A DNA stretch of 56,606 nt, taken from positions 1 through 56,606 of the forward strand of contig JAGRGB010000017.1 of the NCBI GenBank assembly GCA_020445745.1. Direction: 5' to 3'. This document shows, one piece after another, positions 11,395 to 23,908 of the stretch. The notes below the pieces were generated by a model. That model was not told the origin of the DNA. It saw only the letters and a list, made by a program, of their open reading frames with translations, and searched no databases. The DNA is from Rhodocyclaceae bacterium (GTDB taxonomy: Bacteria > Pseudomonadota > Gammaproteobacteria > Burkholderiales > Rhodocyclaceae). Both the position numbers and the translations under genes were made by a program. How positions within the stretch are numbered: position 1 is the first letter of the stretch; every line of letters begins with the position of its first letter.

Positions 11395-12687
11395 TTGCCC
11401 GCCCAGACCCCCGCATGGCTCGTCGCCCTGCTCAATCGCCGCATGCTGGTGTGCATCGTCATGGGCTTCGTGTCGGGCATGCCGCTGTACCTGCTGTTCA
11501 ACCTGCTGCCGGCGTGGTTGCGCACCGAGGGGCTGTCGCTGAAGACCATCGGTGCGTTCGCGCTGATCCAGTTTCCCTACACCTGGAAGTTCCTGTGGGC
11601 GCCGCTGCTGGACCGCTTCGGCATCCTGCCGGGGCTCGGCCGGCGGCGCAGCTGGATGCTGGTGACCCAGCTCGGGCTGGTGGCATCCATCGCCTGGCTC
11701 GGCCAACTCTCGCCGACCGTACACCTGCCGTGGGTGGTGGCCGTCAGCGCAGCGCTGGCGATGTTCTCGGCGACCCAGGACATCGCCCTCGATGCGCTGC
11801 GGCGGGAGATCCTGCCGGACCGCGAGCTCGGCCTCGGCAACGCGATGTACGTCAATGCCTACCGCATCTCCGGGCTGGTGCCGGGGTCGCTGTCGCTGAT
11901 CCTGGCCGACCGCCTGCCTTGGGACACGGTGTTCCTGATCACCTCGCTGTTCATGCTGCCGGGCGTCGTCATGACGCTGCTGGTGCGCGAGCCCGAGGTC
12001 GCCGACACCGCGCCGCGCACGCTGCGCGACGCGGTGGTCGAACCGTTCCACGAGTTCTTCGCCCGCCACGGCGTGTCCTCGGCCCTGCTGGTGCTCGCCT
12101 TCATGCTGTTCTACAAGCTCGGCGACTCGCTGTGCACGGCGCTCGCCACGCCCTTCTACCTGGACATGGGCTACTCGAAGACCGAGATCGGCCTGATCGC
12201 CAAGAATGCCGGGCTGTGGCCGATGGTCGCCGGCGGCATCCTCGGCGGCATCTGGATGGTCCGGCTCGGCATCAACCGGGCGCTGTGGCTGTTCGGGGTG
12301 GTGCAGCTGGTGACGATTCTCGGCTTCGTCTGGCTGGCCTGGCTCGGACCCGCGCCGTCGGACACCGGTCGGCTGGTCGCGCTGGCCCTGGTGATCGCCG
12401 GCGAGGCGATCGGCGCCGGGCTCGGCACCACCGCCTTCGTCGCCTTCATGGCACGCACCACCCACCCGGCCTACACCGCCACCCAGCTCGCGCTGTTCAC
12501 CAGCCTGATGGCGGTGCCGCGCACCTTCATCAACGCCACCGCCGGCTTCCTGGTCGAGGCGCTCGGCTGGCAGCCGTTCTTCTGGCTGTGCTTCGCGCTC
12601 GCGTTTCCCGGCATGCTGTTGCTGCTGAAGGCCGCGCCGTGGAACGAAGACGTGCCCGACACCGACGCTCGAGGACAGGACATATGA
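11395..12687 (+). CDS. ampG: AmpG-like MFS transporter (muropeptide permease family)
   Basis: About 430 residues with roughly twelve membrane helices. The sequence follows AmpG-type major facilitator permeases: GFVSGMPLYLLFNLLPAWLR, FPYTWKFLWAPLLDRF, FSATQDIALDALRREIL and the second-half FYKLGDSLCTALATPFYLD. AmpG imports anhydromuropeptides released from peptidoglycan into the cytoplasm for recycling. I chose TTG 11395 because GGAGC lies four bases upstream and the first helix begins soon after; the frame is open far upstream but is antisense to the neighbouring gene there. Its stop overlaps the next start by ATGA, so the two are translationally coupled. Confidence 0.8.
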   Translation: MPAQTPAWLVALLNRRMLVCIVMGFVSGMPLYLLFNLLPAWLRTEGLSLKTIGAFALIQFPYTWKFLWAPLLDRFGILPGLGRRRSWMLVTQLGLVASIAWLGQLSPTVHLPWVVAVSAALAMFSATQDIALDALRREILPDRELGLGNAMYVNAYRISGLVPGSLSLILADRLPWDTVFLITSLFMLPGVVMTLLVREPEVADTAPRTLRDAVVEPFHEFFARHGVSSALLVLAFMLFYKLGDSLCTALATPFYLDMGYSKTEIGLIAKNAGLWPMVAGGILGGIWMVRLGINRALWLFGVVQLVTILGFVWLAWLGPAPSDTGRLVALALVIAGEAIGAGLGTTAFVAFMARTTHPAYTATQLALFTSLMAVPRTFINATAGFLVEALGWQPFFWLCFALAFPGMLLLLKAAPWNEDVPDTDARGQDI

Positions 12688-14502: not shown

Positions 14503-15678
14503 CTAGGCGAGCTGCGCCAGGCAGGCCGAGACTACCCGCCGCCAAGCGCCGTGCAGGCCCCGCGCCTGGATCGAGTGCGCCGCATCGAGGGCCGACCGGC
14601 GGGCGACCGGGTCGCTGGCAAGTCCGCGGATCAGTTCGGCGACGTGGCCGGGCGGGGCATCGTCGTCCACCATCACGGCGTGCGGCATCCGGTCGAGGGC
14701 GCTGGCGGTGAACCATTGGTCGAGGACCCGGGGCAACAGCAACTGGGGCCGCCCCGCCGCCAGCGCCGCGTAGGCGGTGCCCGGGCCGCCGTGATGGACG
14801 ACCAGCGACGCGGCGGCGCAGGCCTCGATCGCGTCGGGCCGGGCGTCGAGCCAGCGCAGATGCGATCCGGCTATCCGCCCTGGCAGGGCCGGGTCGTGAT
14901 CACGGGCGAAGAGGCCCCCCGGCACGCCGGATTCGATCAAGGCTGCAACGGCCAGCCGGGCTTCCGGTCCGGCGCCGGACAGGTAGGCATGAACGCCCTC
15001 GGCATCGACCGGCGCCGGCGCCGGCGCCGATTCGAACATCCCGGCGCAGGGCTCGCGCCGCGTCTCGCGGTAGGGGTCGAGTTCCGGCAGGCCGAGCACC
15101 ACCCGCCGCTCGCCGCGATAGATCTCGGCCAGGGTGTCGGGCAATGGCGCGCCGAAGCGTCGCTGCACGGCCCGCACCGTCTCCAGCATCTGCGCCTGGT
15201 CGGCGTAGGGCGCGACGTCGTACAGCAACTGCGGGAAATCCGGCCCGTCGGCCGGTGGCGTCGAGTAGGCGGAGCCGAACACCACCGCCGGCAGGCGGCC
15301 GTAGGCGGCGAGCGCCAGTAGTGGCGCATAGCGGGCGACCACCAGCTCCGGTCGCAGCTGATCGATCAGGTCGCGCCAGCCGCGCAGCATCGAGTACAGG
15401 TGGTCCACCGAACCGAAGCCGTTGCAGGCCATCAGGTCGGCAAAACCGGTCGGATTGAAGCCGTCGGCGAGCGCCTGCGGCGTCAGCCGCCCGATCAGCC
15501 ACGGCGCCTGCAGCACCGGGTAGGGCCGGTCGGCGAACAGTCTGTGCGCGTAATCCAGCGTGCGCAGTGCCAGCACCGGCCGATGGCCGGCATCGGCCAG
15601 CGCGTCGGCGAGCTGACGCAATTGCAGGCAGTAGCCGAATCCTGCGCCCAGTTCCCAGCCGAGCAGAATCGTCTTCAT
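14503..15678 (-). CDS. Glycosyltransferase, GT-B fold (GT1/MGT-like)
   Basis: A 391-residue cytoplasmic protein. The N-terminal half begins MKTILLGWELGAGFGYCLQL, typical of the acceptor-binding Rossmann domain. The C-terminal half contains LVVHHGGPGTAYAALAAGRP, the nucleotide-sugar-binding motif of MGT/UDP-glucuronosyltransferase-like enzymes, where HHGG-GT contacts the donor. The donor sugar and acceptor are not deducible. Its ATG overlaps the stop of the upstream DUF6165-type gene (ATGA), so the two are coupled. Confidence 0.75.
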   Translation of the reverse strand: MKTILLGWELGAGFGYCLQLRQLADALADAGHRPVLALRTLDYAHRLFADRPYPVLQAPWLIGRLTPQALADGFNPTGFADLMACNGFGSVDHLYSMLRGWRDLIDQLRPELVVARYAPLLALAAYGRLPAVVFGSAYSTPPADGPDFPQLLYDVAPYADQAQMLETVRAVQRRFGAPLPDTLAEIYRGERRVVLGLPELDPYRETRREPCAGMFESAPAPAPVDAEGVHAYLSGAGPEARLAVAALIESGVPGGLFARDHDPALPGRIAGSHLRWLDARPDAIEACAAASLVVHHGGPGTAYAALAAGRPQLLLPRVLDQWFTASALDRMPHAVMVDDDAPPGHVAELIRGLASDPVARRSALDAAHSIQARGLHGAWRRVVSACLAQLA

Positions 15679-16106
15679 CCCGTTTCCGGGTCGCGTCGCC
15701 GCGTCGCGCCTGCCGCCGGCGCGCCGACCGCATAGACCTTGGCGTCGCCGACCAGGTGGCCGAGTGCGGTGTCGATGTCCGCCTTGAGCTGTGCCCGGCG
15801 ATCGTTGGTGCGGTAGACGTTGCGCGCATGTTCGACGAATGACGCGCCGAATTCGCCGCGACGCTCGCAGTCTCTCAAGGCGTCCTCGATCACCCACAGG
15901 CGATGGTTCAACGCCGCCAGCTCGTCGGCCAGCGCGGTGAGCTCGGGCGAAGCCGGCAGGGCATGCCAGTACTCGAGCAAGGCCGCCAGGCGGGCAGCCG
16001 CGTCGGCACGGCGCGCGCCGTCCAGGTGCGCGACCTTGAGGCGCAGGATGGTGATGCGGTCGATCAGTTCGCCCGGCCCGATCTCGATATGTATGGCGGC
16101 GGCCAC
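15675..16106 (-). CDS. DUF6165-type small protein
   Basis: About 143 residues. The N-terminus IEIGPGELIDRITILRLKV matches the PGELIDKITIL signature of small proteins often placed beside glycosyltransferase genes (DUF6165 in my recollection). The rest is helical with conserved-looking NHRLWVIED and FVEHARNVYRTND. No reaction is known. I chose GTG 16106 because AGGAGG lies just upstream and the conserved start follows; the frame continues to 16313 but overlaps the promoter region of the divergent gene. Its stop overlaps the glycosyltransferase start. Confidence 0.65.
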   Translation of the reverse strand: MAAAIHIEIGPGELIDRITILRLKVAHLDGARRADAAARLAALLEYWHALPASPELTALADELAALNHRLWVIEDALRDCERRGEFGASFVEHARNVYRTNDRRAQLKADIDTALGHLVGDAKVYAVGAPAAGATRRRDPETG

Positions 16107-16216: not shown

Positions 16217-16984
16217 ATGACGCCAGCCGACAAGTGCGGAATCGCGCAGGCGCTGCTGATCGAGGCCCGCGACGCACTGCAGGCGACGCTGGCCGATACG
16301 CGGGATCGCTCACGCGGGGCGCTCAACCAGGAACTGTGGACGGTGGTCCGGATGCTGGGCGAGGTCCCGGAATACTTCAGCCAGGCAGGCCAGGATCACT
16401 TCGTCGATCGCTGCGTGAGCACGGGCCTGCGTGATGGCGTCTTCGTCGATGTCGGTGGCTACGACGGCATCACCGGCTCGAACACGCTGTTCTTCGAACT
16501 GTTCCGCGGCTGGACCGGGCTCCTGATCGAGCCGGTGCCCCAGCACCTGGCCTCGGCCAGGGCGCGGCGGCGTTGTCGCTGCATCGCTGCGGCGGTCGCC
16601 GGCCGCGACGGCATGCGCGAGTTCCTGCAGGTGGCAGACGGCTATACGCAGATGAGCGGCCTGATGGACCGCTACGATCCCGGGTTGCTGCAAGCCGTGC
16701 GCGAGAATCCGCGGCATCGCGAGCAGGTGGTGACGATCGAGGCGCAGTCGCTGGCCCGATTGCTGCGGGATGCCGGGCTCGAGCGCATCGACTACCTGTC
16801 GCTCGACGTCGAAGGCGCCGAGCAGGAGATCCTCGAGGCCTTTCCGTTCGGCGAGTTCGACGTCGCCGCGTGGTCGATCGAAAACGCCGACGGCAAGCCG
16901 GGGATCGAGCGCCGGATGCAGGCCGCAGGCTACCAGCTGGTCGAATACATCGGGGTCGACGAAATCTACGTGCGGCGCGACTGA
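16217..16984 (+). CDS. FkbM-family methyltransferase
   Basis: About 255 residues. It carries the SAM-binding start of FkbM-type enzymes, DGVFVDVGGYDGITGSNTLFFE, followed by GLLIEPVPQHL and, near the end, IDYLSLDVEGAEQEIL, the second family motif. FkbM methyltransferases O-methylate sugars or polyketides. GGAGG at 16201-16205 suits ATG 16217 (11-base spacing) better than ATG 16208 (2 bases). It is followed after 13 bases by a second, larger FkbM gene. Confidence 0.85.
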   Translation: MTPADKCGIAQALLIEARDALQATLADTRDRSRGALNQELWTVVRMLGEVPEYFSQAGQDHFVDRCVSTGLRDGVFVDVGGYDGITGSNTLFFELFRGWTGLLIEPVPQHLASARARRRCRCIAAAVAGRDGMREFLQVADGYTQMSGLMDRYDPGLLQAVRENPRHREQVVTIEAQSLARLLRDAGLERIDYLSLDVEGAEQEILEAFPFGEFDVAAWSIENADGKPGIERRMQAAGYQLVEYIGVDEIYVRRD

Positions 16985-16997
16985 GCGGCCGGGGCCG

Positions 16998-19226
16998 ATG
17001 GAACATCCCGACGCATCGCCACCGCCCGCCGCCAGCGGCGCAGTTCGCGAGCGAACCTGCCGGTTCGGCCGGATGCGCTATGTCGCGCACGACGCCTATA
17101 TCGGCGCCACGCTCGACCGCTACGGCGAGTTCAGCCCGGCCGAGGCCGCGCTGCTGGCCGCCCTGCTCGAACCCGGCGATGTCGCGATCGACGCCGGCGC
17201 CAACATCGGATGCCTGACATTGGCGATGGCACGGAAGGTCGGCGACCAGGGCCGCATCCACGCCTTCGAACCTCGGCCCGCGCTGTTCGCCTTGCTGCAC
17301 GCCAATCTGTCGTTGAACAGGCTCGACAACGTGTCGGCCCATCGTGCGGCGCTCGGCGCGCAATCCGGTCAACGGGCGATCGCGCCGCTCGACACCCGCC
17401 TTCCGGGCAATTTCGGCGAGGCGGCACTGTTGCCGGCCGGGCACGGCGACGCCGTCGCGGTGACCACGATCGACCGGCTGGCCCTGCCCGCCTGCCGACT
17501 GATCAAGGCCGACGTGCAGGGCATGGAGCGGGCCGTGCTGCTCGGCGCCCGTGCAACCATCGATCGCTGCCGGCCGGTGCTGTATCTCGAGAACGACCGG
17601 CGCGAGCATTCCCGGCCCTTGCTGGAGCTGGTACTCGGACTCGGCTATCGTGCCTACTGGCACCTGCCCGCGCTCGCCGTGGCCGACAATTTCCGCGGGG
17701 CGCCGCTGGACGACGCGGGGGACATCGTCAGTGTGAACCTGCTGTGCCTGCCGGACGACCGTCCGCCACCCTTGCGCGAGCTGGCCGAAGTGACGGGTGT
17801 CGACGACTGGTGGCGGACCGACGACGGAGGAAGCCAGGTGAGGCCGAGCGAAGCCGACTTGTTTGCGATCGCGCGCCGCCAGTTCGGACGGGCGCGTTTC
17901 GACGAGGCCTGCGCATTGCTCGACGCGCTGCTCGAGTTCGCGCCCGACCAGCCGGACGCCTTGTGGCTGCTCGCCGAGTGCCACCACCGCGCCGGGCGGG
18001 ATGGCGCCGCGATCGCCTGCCTCCAGCGTCTGCTGGCACGTCATGGCGACGAGGTCGACGCGCTCTGCACGCTGGCCGATCTGCTGGTCGATGGCAAGCG
18101 CTTCGGCGAGGCGGTGGCCGCGATGTCGCGCGCCCATCGCTGCGACCCCAGCAATGCCGCCCTGCTGCACGGCCTCGCGGTGATGCTGCGCCGGGACGGC
18201 CGCGGCAAGGAGGCCCTGGCGATGCTCGACCGGGCGCTGGCGCTGGCGCCGCACTTCGACATCGGCCGCTTCGAGCGGGCCATGGTCCTGCTCGAGGCGG
18301 GGCGGCTGACCGAGGCGTGGCCGGACTACGATCTGCGACACCTGCTCGACCCGGCCTTCCAGGCGCCAGCAGACGTGCCGCGCTGGCAAGGCGGGCGATT
18401 CGACGGCGAGCGCCTGCTGGTCACTGCCGAGGGTGGCCACGGCGACACCATCTGGGCCGCCCGCTTCCTGCCCGCGCTGCGGGCGCTGGGTGGCGAGGTT
18501 CATCTGCAGTTGCGGCCGGAGCAGCGCGAGCTGCTGGCGGCGCTGGACGGGGTGGACGGCTTCGTGCCGCTCGATGCGGGTGAGGACGGTTTCGACCTCT
18601 ACTGTCCGATCCTGTCGCTGCCGGCGCGCCTCGGCGTGTCCGACCCCCACGGCTATCCACCGGCGCGGCTGAAGCCGAGCGCGCAACAGCCGGAGCGCTG
18701 GTCGCGATTGCTGGCGCGGGCGGCCGGGCGCCTGCGGGTCGGCATGCTGTGGTCGGGCAACGAGACCTACGCCAACAATCGCCACCGGGCTGCGTCGCTT
18801 GCCGATTTCCTGCCGCTGGTGGAACTGCCCTCGGTGCAGCTCTACAGCCTGCAGAAGGGCACGCAGCAGGCGGTATTGCGCGAGGCCGGACTCGGCAGCC
18901 TGATCATCGACACCGACGACTGCGACTTCAGCGAGACCGCAGCCCTGGTCGCCGGGCTCGACCTGGTGGTGATGACCGACACCGCCCTCGCCCATCTCGC
19001 CGCCTCCCTCGGCAAACCGGTCTGGCTGCTGCTCGATTCGGCGCCGTTCTGGCTCTATGGCACGAGCGGCGAGACCTGCCCCTGGTACCCGTCGATGCGG
19101 CTGTTCCGGCAGCGTTCGGCGGGCGACTGGCCGGGCGTGATGCGGCGCATCTGCAGCGAGCTGGCCGCGCTCGCGGCGGCGGGCGGGCCACCAGCGCGCG
19201 AGGACGATCGTGACAGACGTGCTTGA
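16998..19226 (+). CDS. FkbM methyltransferase - TPR - glycosyltransferase fusion
   Basis: About 742 residues in three parts. Residues about 20-260 are an FkbM methyltransferase (GDVAIDAGANIGCLTLAMA, HAFEPRPALFALL, LIKADVQGMERAVLLGA). Residues about 285-440 are TPR units (DALWLLAECHHRAGRDGAAI, LLHGLAVMLRRDGRGKEALA). Residues about 450-730 resemble the TPR-linked glycosyltransferase domain related to GT9/GT41 (RLLVTAEGGHGDTIWAARFL, RVGMLWSGNETYANNRHRA, LVVMTDTALAHLAASLGKPV). It may modify a glycan or protein. The start follows a GG-rich stretch only; the next gene starts 65 bases after the stop, so all three plus-strand genes may form one operon. Confidence 0.8.
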   Translation: MEHPDASPPPAASGAVRERTCRFGRMRYVAHDAYIGATLDRYGEFSPAEAALLAALLEPGDVAIDAGANIGCLTLAMARKVGDQGRIHAFEPRPALFALLHANLSLNRLDNVSAHRAALGAQSGQRAIAPLDTRLPGNFGEAALLPAGHGDAVAVTTIDRLALPACRLIKADVQGMERAVLLGARATIDRCRPVLYLENDRREHSRPLLELVLGLGYRAYWHLPALAVADNFRGAPLDDAGDIVSVNLLCLPDDRPPPLRELAEVTGVDDWWRTDDGGSQVRPSEADLFAIARRQFGRARFDEACALLDALLEFAPDQPDALWLLAECHHRAGRDGAAIACLQRLLARHGDEVDALCTLADLLVDGKRFGEAVAAMSRAHRCDPSNAALLHGLAVMLRRDGRGKEALAMLDRALALAPHFDIGRFERAMVLLEAGRLTEAWPDYDLRHLLDPAFQAPADVPRWQGGRFDGERLLVTAEGGHGDTIWAARFLPALRALGGEVHLQLRPEQRELLAALDGVDGFVPLDAGEDGFDLYCPILSLPARLGVSDPHGYPPARLKPSAQQPERWSRLLARAAGRLRVGMLWSGNETYANNRHRAASLADFLPLVELPSVQLYSLQKGTQQAVLREAGLGSLIIDTDDCDFSETAALVAGLDLVVMTDTALAHLAASLGKPVWLLLDSAPFWLYGTSGETCPWYPSMRLFRQRSAGDWPGVMRRICSELAALAAAGGPPAREDDRDRRA

Positions 19227-19291
19227 CCGGGGCGACGGAGTGGGCGAAGGTTGTCCGGCGGCAATTCGACTGCAAGCGCACGGAGACAGCG

Positions 19292-19819
19292 ATGAGCAGG
19301 AAAATCGGCCACGGGGCGAGCGACCGCCTCGACATCGATCGCGACATCAAGCGGCTCGGCGGTGACCACCGAGGGCGGACGGTCACCACCATCCGCCGCA
19401 ACACGATCACCGGCGGCGCACGCTTCAGGACCCTCGACCACACCGCCGGCATGACCCAGCCGTTCGCCAACCGGATGTACACAATCTACGGCGGCAAGAA
19501 CCTCGATACGATCTACGCCGGAAAACGATTCGATACGATCTACGCAGGCAAACGCTTCGACACCATCTACGCGGGCAAGCGCTTCGACACGATCTACGCA
19601 GGCAAGCGTTTCGACACCGTGTATGGCGGTGGCGGCAGCGGGGCCATCACCTACTGGGGCGCGCCGCGCCAGGGGGGCGGGGTAACGATGACGGTCAAGG
19701 ACCCGACCACCCGTCAGGTCGTCAGCGTCGTCTATAACCCGGTCACCCGACAGTACCTCGACACCAAGGCCAAGCGCTGGCTGGCCGCGCCGGCCTGGAT
19801 GCGCGCCCAGCTCGGCTGA
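19292..19819 (+). CDS. Unknown protein with five tandem 9-residue repeats
   Basis: About 175 residues, family not recognised. A basic N-terminal part (about 1-64) precedes five tandem nonapeptides (19484-19618): IYGGKNLDT once, then IYAGKRFDT four times, followed by a degenerate VYGGGGSG. After a Gly-rich linker comes a C-terminal segment (VTMTVKDPTTRQVVSVVYNP). The four identical peptide units use different synonymous codons, a sign of selection on the peptide. There is no signal peptide. ATG 19292 follows GGAGA. It lies directly after two FkbM genes, and its frame stays open past the TGA stop into the next gene. Confidence 0.65.
   Translation: MSRKIGHGASDRLDIDRDIKRLGGDHRGRTVTTIRRNTITGGARFRTLDHTAGMTQPFANRMYTIYGGKNLDTIYAGKRFDTIYAGKRFDTIYAGKRFDTIYAGKRFDTVYGGGGSGAITYWGAPRQGGGVTMTVKDPTTRQVVSVVYNPVTRQYLDTKAKRWLAAPAWMRAQLG
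19484..19618 (+). repeat. Five tandem 27-bp coding repeats
   Basis: Units begin at 19484, 19511, 19538, 19565 and 19592, all in frame. The last four encode the same nonapeptide with silent differences (for example gcc gga aaa cga against gca ggc aag cgt). The first unit differs at three residues (GG for AG, NL for RF). Confidence 0.9.
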
Positions 19820-19870
19820 AGGATTCGCGATGCCGGCCATGACAGCGGCGACCCAGGGCGCGACTACCCG

Positions 19871-20650
19871 GTGCGCCTGACCGTCCATTTCGAGCCGCCT
19901 GCGGACGGCACCGCGAGCGACGGCGGGCCGGTGACCGTCGGCTGGTTGCTCAGCGACCCGCGCGGCAGCGTGATCTACGGTCCGCCGGCCCGCGTGCGCG
20001 GCGTCGACCGCGGCACACCCCCGCCGGCCAAGTCGGCGGCCAGATGTCCGGCCATTCTCGGGCTCGAGAGCCGACTGTTCGAGATCAAGTGTCCCTTCGA
20101 CCTGGCCCTCGACTACGTCCGCGACGATTTCGGTCGGCCGGCGGTGCGGGACCGTCTCGGCAGCGCCGCATCCCTGCGGCCCGACCGCATCGACGAATTG
20201 ATCCACTGGGTCGAGGAAGACGAGTGGCGATCACCGGAGCGCCCGACGCTGCAACTGGCAATGCCCTACATCTTCGTCGCCGACGAGCCGGTATACCTGT
20301 CGCAATGGGCACCGATGTTCCATTACCGCGCCGAGCCGCTACCGGGCCTGATGCTCAGCGGCCGTTTCCCGATCAACGTCTGGCCCCGTCCGCTGATGTG
20401 GGGCTTCGAGTGGCACGACACCACGGCGCCGCTGATCCTGCACCGCGGCGAACCGCTGTTCTACGTGCAGTTCGAGACCACCCCCCAGCATCGCGCGATC
20501 CAGCTCGTCGAAGCCGAGCGCACGCCCGAGCTCGACGAGTACCTGGTGATGATCGAAGGCGTGGTCAGCTACGTCGGTCAGACCTTCTCGCTGTTCAAGA
20601 CGGCCGAGGCCCGACGCCCCGCGCGCCTGCTGAAGCCGCGGCAGCGCTGA
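19871..20650 (+). CDS. Unknown 259-residue protein in the frame of the repeat gene
   Basis: I cannot name a family. It is a soluble, aromatic-rich protein with conserved-looking motifs PYIFVADEPVYLSQWAPMF, RFPINVWPRPLMWGFEW and RGEPLFYVQFET. The best start in frame is GTG 19871, but no ribosome site precedes it, and the reading frame is continuous with the repeat gene apart from its TGA at 19817-19819. It may be translated by coupling, by an upstream non-canonical start, or represent the second half of a once-fused protein. Position suggests it acts with the FkbM/repeat genes. Confidence 0.6.
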   Translation: MRLTVHFEPPADGTASDGGPVTVGWLLSDPRGSVIYGPPARVRGVDRGTPPPAKSAARCPAILGLESRLFEIKCPFDLALDYVRDDFGRPAVRDRLGSAASLRPDRIDELIHWVEEDEWRSPERPTLQLAMPYIFVADEPVYLSQWAPMFHYRAEPLPGLMLSGRFPINVWPRPLMWGFEWHDTTAPLILHRGEPLFYVQFETTPQHRAIQLVEAERTPELDEYLVMIEGVVSYVGQTFSLFKTAEARRPARLLKPRQR

Positions 20651-21547: not shown

Positions 21548-23908
21548 TCAGCGTCCGTTGCCGGTGATGAAGAACGCCGCCCAGAAGAAGGGGTGGGGGT
21601 ATTTCTCGCGGGTCGCCAGCTGGGCGTGGCGCAGGGCGTGCCGCTTGGGCTCGCCGGTGTCGAGCCGGCGGTAGTAGTTCTGCATCAGCATGGTCGTGGC
21701 ATCGTCGTCCACCTGCCACAGCGACGCGACGATGTTGGATGCACCGGCATACAGGAAGCCGCGGGTCAGGCCGACCACGTCGTCGCCCGTCAGCACCGTG
21801 CCGAGGCCGGTCTCGCACGCCGACAGGGTCACCATGTCGGCATCCAGCTGGAGGTTGTAGAGCTCGTCGGTGGTCAGCGAACCGTCGTTGTCTTCGTCTC
21901 GCGCCAGCAGCAGGCGGGATTGCAGGGCATTGTCGGCGTTGTATTCGCCGTGGGAGGCGATGTGCAGGTAGCGGTAGCGCGAGGCGTTGCGCTTGAACTC
22001 GGTCTCGCTGGCCTCCCCGCGCACCAGCGCCCGGCTGTCGGGCACCATCGCGCTGATCGCCTCGACCTCGCGCTGGGCGCTGGGCAGGTCGAAGCGCTCG
22101 TCGCCGAGATCCGGGTTGCCGATCGCGAGCAGGTGACGGGGCGGGGTCGCCTGCTGCGGCGTGTCGAGGAAACCGACCACGCTGGCGCTCGGCAGGAAGC
22201 GCAGGCTGCGGCGCGCGAGCCAGTAGTCGCGGCCGTCGTGCAGCGCGCCGAACGACACGTAGTGAAGGATGCCGTGGGGTACCACCAGCAGGTTGCCGGT
22301 TGCGGCGAGGCCCCGCACCGGACGGATCAGCCGATCGTACAGCGCCCGCGAGCGACGCTCGACGTCGTCGGTGCGCTCGTCGATCGCCTTGCGGAACGCG
22401 CGCACGTCATCGGCCAGCCCTTCGGTCGCTATCTCGGTGACCGTGACCTTGCCCTGGTCGAGCAGCGCCGCATACAGCTTGCCGCCGTGGCCGTAGTATT
22501 CGAGCACCGCCTCTTCCTTGTTGAGGCGGGCCTCGACGTCGCTGGTGGACAGCGAGGCCACCGAGATCAGCGACGCCAGGTCCGGCGCGATCACCGCCAG
22601 CCGCGCACGGATCTCCTCGAGGCTCATCTGTCCGCCGGCGCCGCGGGTGGAATCGGCCGACACCGGCACCTGGGCCTGGCGCTCGAGCATCGCATCCTTG
22701 AGCCGGGCAAAGGTCTCCCGCGCCTCGCCCGAGCGCGGGCCGGTGACGACGAAGTCGTTCTTCGCGGCCAGCATGTCCACCAGCGCGCGCGCCTTCGACC
22801 GCTCCATGTAGTCGAACGCGGTGTTGTTGCGACCGCTGGCCAGCAGCATCTCGATCAGCTCCGCATAGACCACCTGCTTGTCGCCGACGAAGCCGATCTT
22901 GGCCGCCTCGGTGTTGATCGAGGAGCGCTGCAGCTCGATCACCTCGATCGCCTGGCGGAAATAGCGGATCGCGGCAGCGATGTCGCCGTCCCGGGCCGCG
23001 ACGCGGCCGCGATCGTAGAGCATCATCCAGAAGATCTCGCCGTTGGCGGGCGCCGCCGGGGCCGCCAGCAGCTTGTCCAGTCCGCTCCGCGCAGCGTCGA
23101 CGTCGCCGGTCTCGAACAACGCCCGATTGAGCAGGAAGCCGCGCGGCAGCTCGATCCACACCCAGTTGCTGGCGCCCCGCAGGCTGGCACCGCTGAACAG
23201 GTTGTCGGCCCACACCCGCCACTCGAAATGCTCGTCCTCGCGGATCACCCGCAACACCTCGCGGTAATCGCCGAGCGCCGCATAGGCGCGCGCCAGTGCC
23301 AGCGAGCGGGTCGTCGCGAAGTCCTGCGCTTCGCCCCAGCGCAGGTCGAGGGCTTCGAGCTCGCGCGCCAGCGCACGCCCTCGCTCCGGATCGCCGGACA
23401 GCGTGGCGGCGATCGATTGCACCGCCAGCGCCTCGATGGCGATGTCGCCGAAGCCGTCGTAGTCGCCGCCCAGCCAGTCCATCGCCCGCTTCGCCTCGGA
23501 GCGGGCCTCGCTGTACTGGGCCAGATCGACGCGGGCGACGGCACGCATCAGGTACACCACCGGCGTGGCGTCTTCGAGACCGAACAGCCAGGAGTGGCGC
23601 GAGCCCTTGCGAAGGCCGGCTTCGAGCTTGTCGAGGCAGGGCAGCAGACGATCGTAGCGCTTGGTCTTGGCGTGGGCGAAGCACAGCGCGTGGCGTTCCT
23701 GGTTCGACAACTCCCGTTCGCGGGCAATGGCCTCCAGGGTACGTTCGATCTCGTCGAAGCGCCCGGTGGTGGCGTAGGCGGAGACTTCGGCGTAGACGTC
23801 CCGATCGACCCGAACTCCGCCGCCGGGCGACACGCAGGCCGGCAGCGCCAGCACCCCGGCAAACGCCAGGATGCCGACGATGCGCTGCAGCCGGCCCGCC
23901 CGGTTCAT
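21548..23908 (-). CDS. TPR-CHAT caspase-like lipoprotein
   Basis: A 786-residue protein. A lipoprotein signal (GILAFAGVLALPAC) ends in a lipobox with Cys25, so the mature protein should be lipid-anchored in the periplasm or outer membrane. Residues about 35-420 are TPR-like helices. The C-terminal part (about 480-786) is a CHAT domain, a caspase-like cysteine protease fold, with the catalytic pair in YLHIASHGEY (His about 653) and TLSACETGLG (Cys about 698), then FLYAGASNIVASLWQVDD. The active residues are intact. The gene starts four bases after the outer-membrane barrel gene ends, so the two form an operon. The substrate is unknown. Confidence 0.85.
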   Translation of the reverse strand: MNRAGRLQRIVGILAFAGVLALPACVSPGGGVRVDRDVYAEVSAYATTGRFDEIERTLEAIARERELSNQERHALCFAHAKTKRYDRLLPCLDKLEAGLRKGSRHSWLFGLEDATPVVYLMRAVARVDLAQYSEARSEAKRAMDWLGGDYDGFGDIAIEALAVQSIAATLSGDPERGRALARELEALDLRWGEAQDFATTRSLALARAYAALGDYREVLRVIREDEHFEWRVWADNLFSGASLRGASNWVWIELPRGFLLNRALFETGDVDAARSGLDKLLAAPAAPANGEIFWMMLYDRGRVAARDGDIAAAIRYFRQAIEVIELQRSSINTEAAKIGFVGDKQVVYAELIEMLLASGRNNTAFDYMERSKARALVDMLAAKNDFVVTGPRSGEARETFARLKDAMLERQAQVPVSADSTRGAGGQMSLEEIRARLAVIAPDLASLISVASLSTSDVEARLNKEEAVLEYYGHGGKLYAALLDQGKVTVTEIATEGLADDVRAFRKAIDERTDDVERRSRALYDRLIRPVRGLAATGNLLVVPHGILHYVSFGALHDGRDYWLARRSLRFLPSASVVGFLDTPQQATPPRHLLAIGNPDLGDERFDLPSAQREVEAISAMVPDSRALVRGEASETEFKRNASRYRYLHIASHGEYNADNALQSRLLLARDEDNDGSLTTDELYNLQLDADMVTLSACETGLGTVLTGDDVVGLTRGFLYAGASNIVASLWQVDDDATTMLMQNYYRRLDTGEPKRHALRHAQLATREKYPHPFFWAAFFITGNGR

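Follow-up and report, generated by a model that had tools for sequence, protein, structure and literature searches.

A selectively maintained array of tyrosine-bearing nonapeptides with fixed ends, and its putative beta-clip partner, in a genus of Rhodocyclaceae

The window analyzed here is a stretch of 56,606 nucleotides from a Rhodocyclaceae bacterium (assembly GCA_020445745.1, contig JAGRGB010000017.1). Its subject is a forward-strand gene (19292-19819) encoding a 175-residue protein with an isoelectric point (pI) of 10.5 and no cysteine, together with the gene for a 259-residue protein that follows it on the same strand (19871-20650); the interval of the original prediction, 19292-20650, takes in both. 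The smaller protein carries a tandem array of nonapeptides that selection preserves at the peptide level, its ends are fixed among relatives with units that change between them, and a companion gene accompanies it. The reading we favor, possible rather than probable, is that this selected array of identical tyrosine-bearing motifs may be bound or acted on by a single partner, most likely the 259-residue protein, for which a beta-clip fold is predicted.

The array consists of a variant unit, IYGGKNLDT (19484-19510, forward strand), directly followed by four identical copies of IYAGKRFDT (19511-19618, forward strand) and then by the degenerate motif TVYGGGGSG. The four units and single variant originally described were borne out by translation, by Tandem Repeats Finder (period 27, 4.3 copies, 88% matches, score 160) and by shuffling of the protein, which gave no identical tandem 9-mer pair in 10,000 shuffles. 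The gene looks real: GGAG precedes the start codon in the window and in the copies of five relatives, and each of the four other genomes that were read keeps the frame open. As also claimed, the identical units differ at synonymous sites only. The six pairwise comparisons among them contain no nonsynonymous differences and 2, 3, 3, 5, 5 and 6 synonymous ones, over about 6 synonymous sites, which shows that selection acts on the peptide unit and not on the DNA. Ratios of nonsynonymous to synonymous substitution rates between the window and three relatives were 0.14 for the array, the C-terminal part and the first 35 residues alike when compared with locus L030; the corresponding values were 0.06, 0.08 and 0.39 for L031, and 0.40, 0.15 and 0.59 for L032.

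An alignment of six proteins (the window, L030, L031, L032, L033 and the paralogue L034) has 39 invariant columns, clustered in an N-terminal IDRDI..LGG segment and in a C-terminal module. The N-terminal motif, IDRDIKRLGG (19334-19363, forward strand), has I15, D16, D18, I19, L22, G23 and G24 invariant in all members, and a helix is predicted over residues 11-24 at very low confidence (predicted local distance difference test, pLDDT, about 30). The C-terminal module spans 58 residues (AITYWG...VVYNPVTRQYLD...RWLAAPAWMRAQLG; 19643-19816, forward strand), of which 25 columns are invariant, and it was modeled with a pLDDT of 61-71 over residues 131-175; the mean for the five-model prediction on the six sequences was 43.5. 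Between these ends the unit is exchangeable: it has nine residues in the window, L030, L031 and L032, 10-12 residues in L033 (TIYAGKGRMD and others) and 15 residues in the paralogue L034 (LTYIDPYLPRGSDRA). The L034 unit may derive from amplification of an AITYWG/ALTYWG segment, because its LTY resembles the single copy of that segment found just before the C-terminal module in the other members. With pI values of 10.3-11.0, all six proteins are basic.

The gene for the 259-residue protein lies immediately downstream of the repeat gene in all five genomes with the main repeat gene, in keeping with the companion role first proposed for it, and it is a closer partner of the repeat gene than the FkbM genes discussed below. 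Its product looks like a dUTPase/dCTP deaminase-like beta-clip protein in the predicted structure (about residues 19-206) and does not look like a known peptide-modifying enzyme. Unlike dUTPases and dCTP deaminases, it matched no Pfam family at E values up to 1, a search that also failed to support a suspected likeness to DUF6065. dUTPases carry a catalytic Asp-Tyr motif; at that site, by our own placing, we believe that the 259-residue family reads GRFPI.VWPRP. Relatives occur in phages (phrog_17480, E 1.2e-11) and in other Pseudomonadota, and Foldseek returned an uncultured Caudovirales protein (E 9.9e-15). When viral contigs were scanned with an alignment of its cellular members, none of 31 stretches was confirmed.

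Selected neighbors of the family were scanned at nine of 13 viral loci, all but L068, L069, L074 and L079. In L072 the homologue has a glycosyltransferase-like gene on one side and an FkbM gene on the other; it adjoins a GT2 gene in L075 and a DUF6445 gene in L073 and L076, with a 2-oxoglutarate (2OG) oxygenase gene next to DUF6445 in L073. In L071 it is flanked by two 2OG oxygenase genes, the farther of which is about 2 kb away. The scanned neighbors in L067, L070, L077 and L078 are of the DNA-replication/nuclease type or of no assigned type. This recurrence with group-transfer enzymes is suggestive, with no background rate behind it. Starts and stops overlap among the beta-clip, FkbM, glycosyltransferase, 2OG oxygenase and DUF6445 genes at L072 (2096-4313), L075 (2878-4349) and L073 (1669-3720).

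The small, strongly basic array protein thus holds an exchangeable middle of near-identical tyrosine motifs (T-I/V/L-Y-A/G-G plus a short linker) between the N-terminal IDRDI..LGG segment and the 58-residue C-terminal module. In the mechanism that we propose, each unit would be a linear motif to which a single partner binds or on which it acts, the array would multiply that site and make the protein multivalent, and the partner would most likely be the predicted beta-clip protein encoded just downstream. The FkbM and glycosyltransferase genes form a separate cassette, in this reading optional or unrelated, whether or not its enzymes also act on the array protein. A broader proposal, which we consider unlikely, is that of a two-gene system in which the tyrosine-motif array would be a substrate or multivalent ligand of the beta-clip protein, and different lineages would have evolved or rebuilt it from unrelated units, the partner family being shared with phages and found near FkbM, glycosyltransferase and 2OG oxygenase genes.

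A second repeat neighbor of the beta-clip family was found in a genome of the same order and another family (G099). There only 4 bases separate a homologue of the 259-residue protein, if its start is the ATG that agrees with the family alignment, from a preceding 57-residue open reading frame with an AAGGAG site, mixed synonymous codons and the tandem run QYGEYGR-QYGMYGQ-QYGTYGH. This pair (within L083, contig C1, 762000-780000) lies between two tRNA genes, and a further small overlapping reading frame follows downstream. Sequence kinship between the two repeat proteins is none worth the name (E 0.88). Two results weigh against this association. No repeat gene was detected beside five other cellular homologues outside the genus or beside 15 phage and viral ones, in a scan that is not sensitive, as it recovers four of the six known family arrays and misses L032 and L034. 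Moreover, tandem-peptide frames abound in G099 (22 of 1733 in 418 kb, a count that includes the 57-residue frame itself, antisense frames and runs of N). Because of these two results the G099 pair is a lead, not proof. Another tandem-peptide frame of G099 lies about 5 kb from the pair.

The original prediction placed the repeat protein in no recognized family, a statement that proved incomplete because the RTX nonapeptide family PF00353 scores above its gathering cut-off (28 bits against 23, E 2.2e-6). This match underlies a rather unlikely alternative, that the units stack into a beta structure, such as a degenerate beta-roll of the RTX type, and that the small protein is secreted, adhesive or serves as a scaffold. 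PF00353 matches four of the six members at E values up to 1 (best 5e-9), four have a nine-residue period, the units share a D-T-I/L-Y-x-G core (DTLYGGKTF in L032), and the structural model places strands in the array, although at a pLDDT of only about 40. We compared the turns by anchoring units on [DN]-x-U-x-[GA] in five family members (L034 was left out because its unit is different) and in 15 RTX control frames taken from among the matches to the repeat protein, 14 from other genera and one from genome G003 of the same genus, all trimmed at locus ends. Glycine occupies the third turn position in 7 of 31 family units against 256 of 386 control units, and arginine occupies it in 18 of the 31. 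Aspartate at the sixth position is likewise rarer in the family (16/31 versus 263/386), and the second glycine position is more constant (31/31 versus 196/386); the first glycine column carries no evidence because the anchor imposes G or A there. Loss of the turn glycine in most units and a unit length that varies from 9 through 10-12 to 15 rule out a canonical RTX protein, from which the family also differs in being small and basic with unrelated ends. A further point against the RTX-type alternative is that the whole repeat protein has no second match in its own genome even at E 10. A query with the C-terminal part gave two weak matches there, both dismissed on reading the frames: one (E 0.33) was taken to be an alternative frame of a glycosyltransferase-like reading frame and the other (E 0.95) to lie within a frame of the sensor-kinase/response-regulator type.

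A second alternative, which we also judge unlikely, is that the protein is a substrate for modification, akin to a ribosomally synthesized and post-translationally modified peptide (RiPP), its units serving as acceptor sites for the enzymes encoded upstream. The neighbors named in the original prediction are indeed there: an FkbM methyltransferase (16217-16984) and a fusion of FkbM, tetratricopeptide repeat (TPR) and glycosyltransferase domains (17073-19226), both on the forward strand, with PF05050 matches of E 1e-16 and 1.3e-14 across the two genes and, in the fusion, TPR families and Glyco_transf_9 (24.4 bits against a cut-off of 22). The genes of 16217-20650 are colinear on one strand in the window, L030, L031 and L032, the last of which begins inside the FkbM gene, but in L031 an AsmA-like gene, assigned by reading, intervenes between the glycosyltransferase fusion and the repeat gene. 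The enzymes found near viral members of the 259-residue family also favor a modification substrate. RiPP precursors with a repeated core resemble the repeat family in their fixed ends and variable repeated middle, and an LGG follows the N-terminal motif, invariant in six of six members; the genome itself has two matches to the C39 peptidase that acts on double-glycine leaders, both on other contigs and one of them within a frame of 743 codons. However, the segment around LGG seems a poor fit to the consensus of such leaders, no precursor-peptide family was matched, and the family differs in its long conserved C-terminal module and in having no obligate known modifying enzyme. FkbM enzymes, moreover, mostly act on small molecules or glycans.

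The arrangement in genome G004 of the same genus bears most directly on this alternative. Its contig C201 holds the repeat gene and the 259-residue gene 13 bases apart, and the 10 kb to each side contain no match to the window FkbM genes; a globin-like gene lies just upstream of the pair and a different methyltransferase-like gene two genes upstream, both assigned by reading. Relatives of the FkbM gene and of the FkbM-TPR-glycosyltransferase gene lie together on another contig (C3, 7.4 kb), with a DUF6165-like gene, again by reading, between them. On a third (C78), a diverged repeat paralogue is bordered by the genes that flank the window locus; the 259-residue gene is missing there, and no FkbM match was found in 10 kb upstream or about 4 kb downstream. 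With cassette, pair and paralogue thus spread over three contigs, the FkbM genes and the repeat/259-residue pair are two separable modules, and FkbM is ruled out as an obligate neighbor.

The two FkbM-bearing genes share one presence pattern with the repeat gene and the 259-residue gene, in the same five of six genus genomes; the fusion was called at E values up to 1e-80, and in G002 the match to FkbM covers a 50-residue piece where a contig ends. A shared pattern over six genomes with one absence proves little. In the lacking genome, G003, the 15.6 kb after the counterpart of the 12684-13436 gene gave only weak matches to three window kinase/phosphatase-like genes, and a search of G003 alone, with no positive control, found no counterpart of the CHAT-like gene located after the window locus. 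The joint absence is therefore discounted as evidence of function, because G003 differs over the whole block. Homologues without these neighbors were originally named as refuting; by that standard, physical linkage to FkbM is broken in one genome and genome-level co-occurrence is intact. The idea that the FkbM enzymes modify the repeat is weakly supported. Literature searches on FkbM/tetratricopeptide/glycosyltransferase with a repeat protein, on CHAT with tetratricopeptide and FkbM, and on three peptides of the repeat, DUF6065 and DUF6445 found nothing.

The repeat family occurs in five of the six genomes of one Rhodocyclaceae genus (G000, G001, G002, G004 with two copies, and G005); in G003 the only match is RTX-like, inside an 8627-codon frame. 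A scan of GTDB r220 with two peptide patterns returned 131 stretches, of which five were confirmed, all in the Rhodocyclaceae metagenome-assembled genomes HKST-UBA161, 162, 163 and 167. So far the family has been seen in one genus only, a genus known from metagenome-assembled genomes. Weak matches (E 3e-5 to 1e-2) arose in 23 of 95 genomes of other genera, and five frames behind them, read in part, contain ordinary RTX-type repeats. Profile searches with the C-terminal module used order and phylum draws that are samples and partly overlap. The module was found in one of 399 genomes of the order, its own, in a draw that evidently included none of the four other carriers. In the phylum it matched three of 398, including its own; the other two matches were rejected, one lying inside a heptosyltransferase-like frame and the other being a short frame without the module. 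None of 82 viral stretches scanned was confirmed and phages gave no match. Twenty-four plasmid records matched; among the ten matches listed, all fall within query residues 48-137 and two are annotated as calcium-binding proteins. The restriction to one genus, together with a paralogue that has a different unit and no companion gene, would suit a lineage-specific orphan in which tandem duplication multiplied units that have no function as such, the 259-residue gene being a chance operon companion, but this is quite improbable given the purely synonymous divergence of the units and the recurrence of the two genes together at a different place in G004.

Several features lie further from the pair. 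Upstream of the FkbM cassette is a DUF6165-like gene (15675-16106, reverse strand; 30.4 bits against 27), and ARAGORN calls a tRNA-Gly (15017-15109, reverse strand) inside a glycosyltransferase-like gene (14503-15678), probably a false positive. Two genes beyond the pair, on the opposite strand, is a TPR-CHAT-like protein gene (21548-23908), assigned by reading, an orthologue of which flanks the L034 paralogue; a CHAT protease could in principle cut an array. The region 25352-50159 reads as a type VI secretion-like cluster with FHA, PP2C-like, kinase-like, TagF-, TssM-, VgrG- and PAAR-like genes. A single in-frame TGA codon occurs, as matched, in the FkbM-TPR-glycosyltransferase relative of G002 (C156, 3758-5947), and another in the G004 relative (C78, 13296-14582) of the transporter-like gene at 11395. 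Possible causes are decay, an error of assembly or overhang of the query.

Even if the repeat protein were a lineage-specific orphan, it illustrates how a match to the RTX model of Pfam can pick out a protein without the defining turn of RTX. If the pair is real, there would be a testable ligand or substrate for a so far unnamed beta-clip family common to phages, this genus and other Pseudomonadota, and the array would be a clear case of selection keeping many copies of a peptide identical within one protein, with a unit that is replaceable between species.
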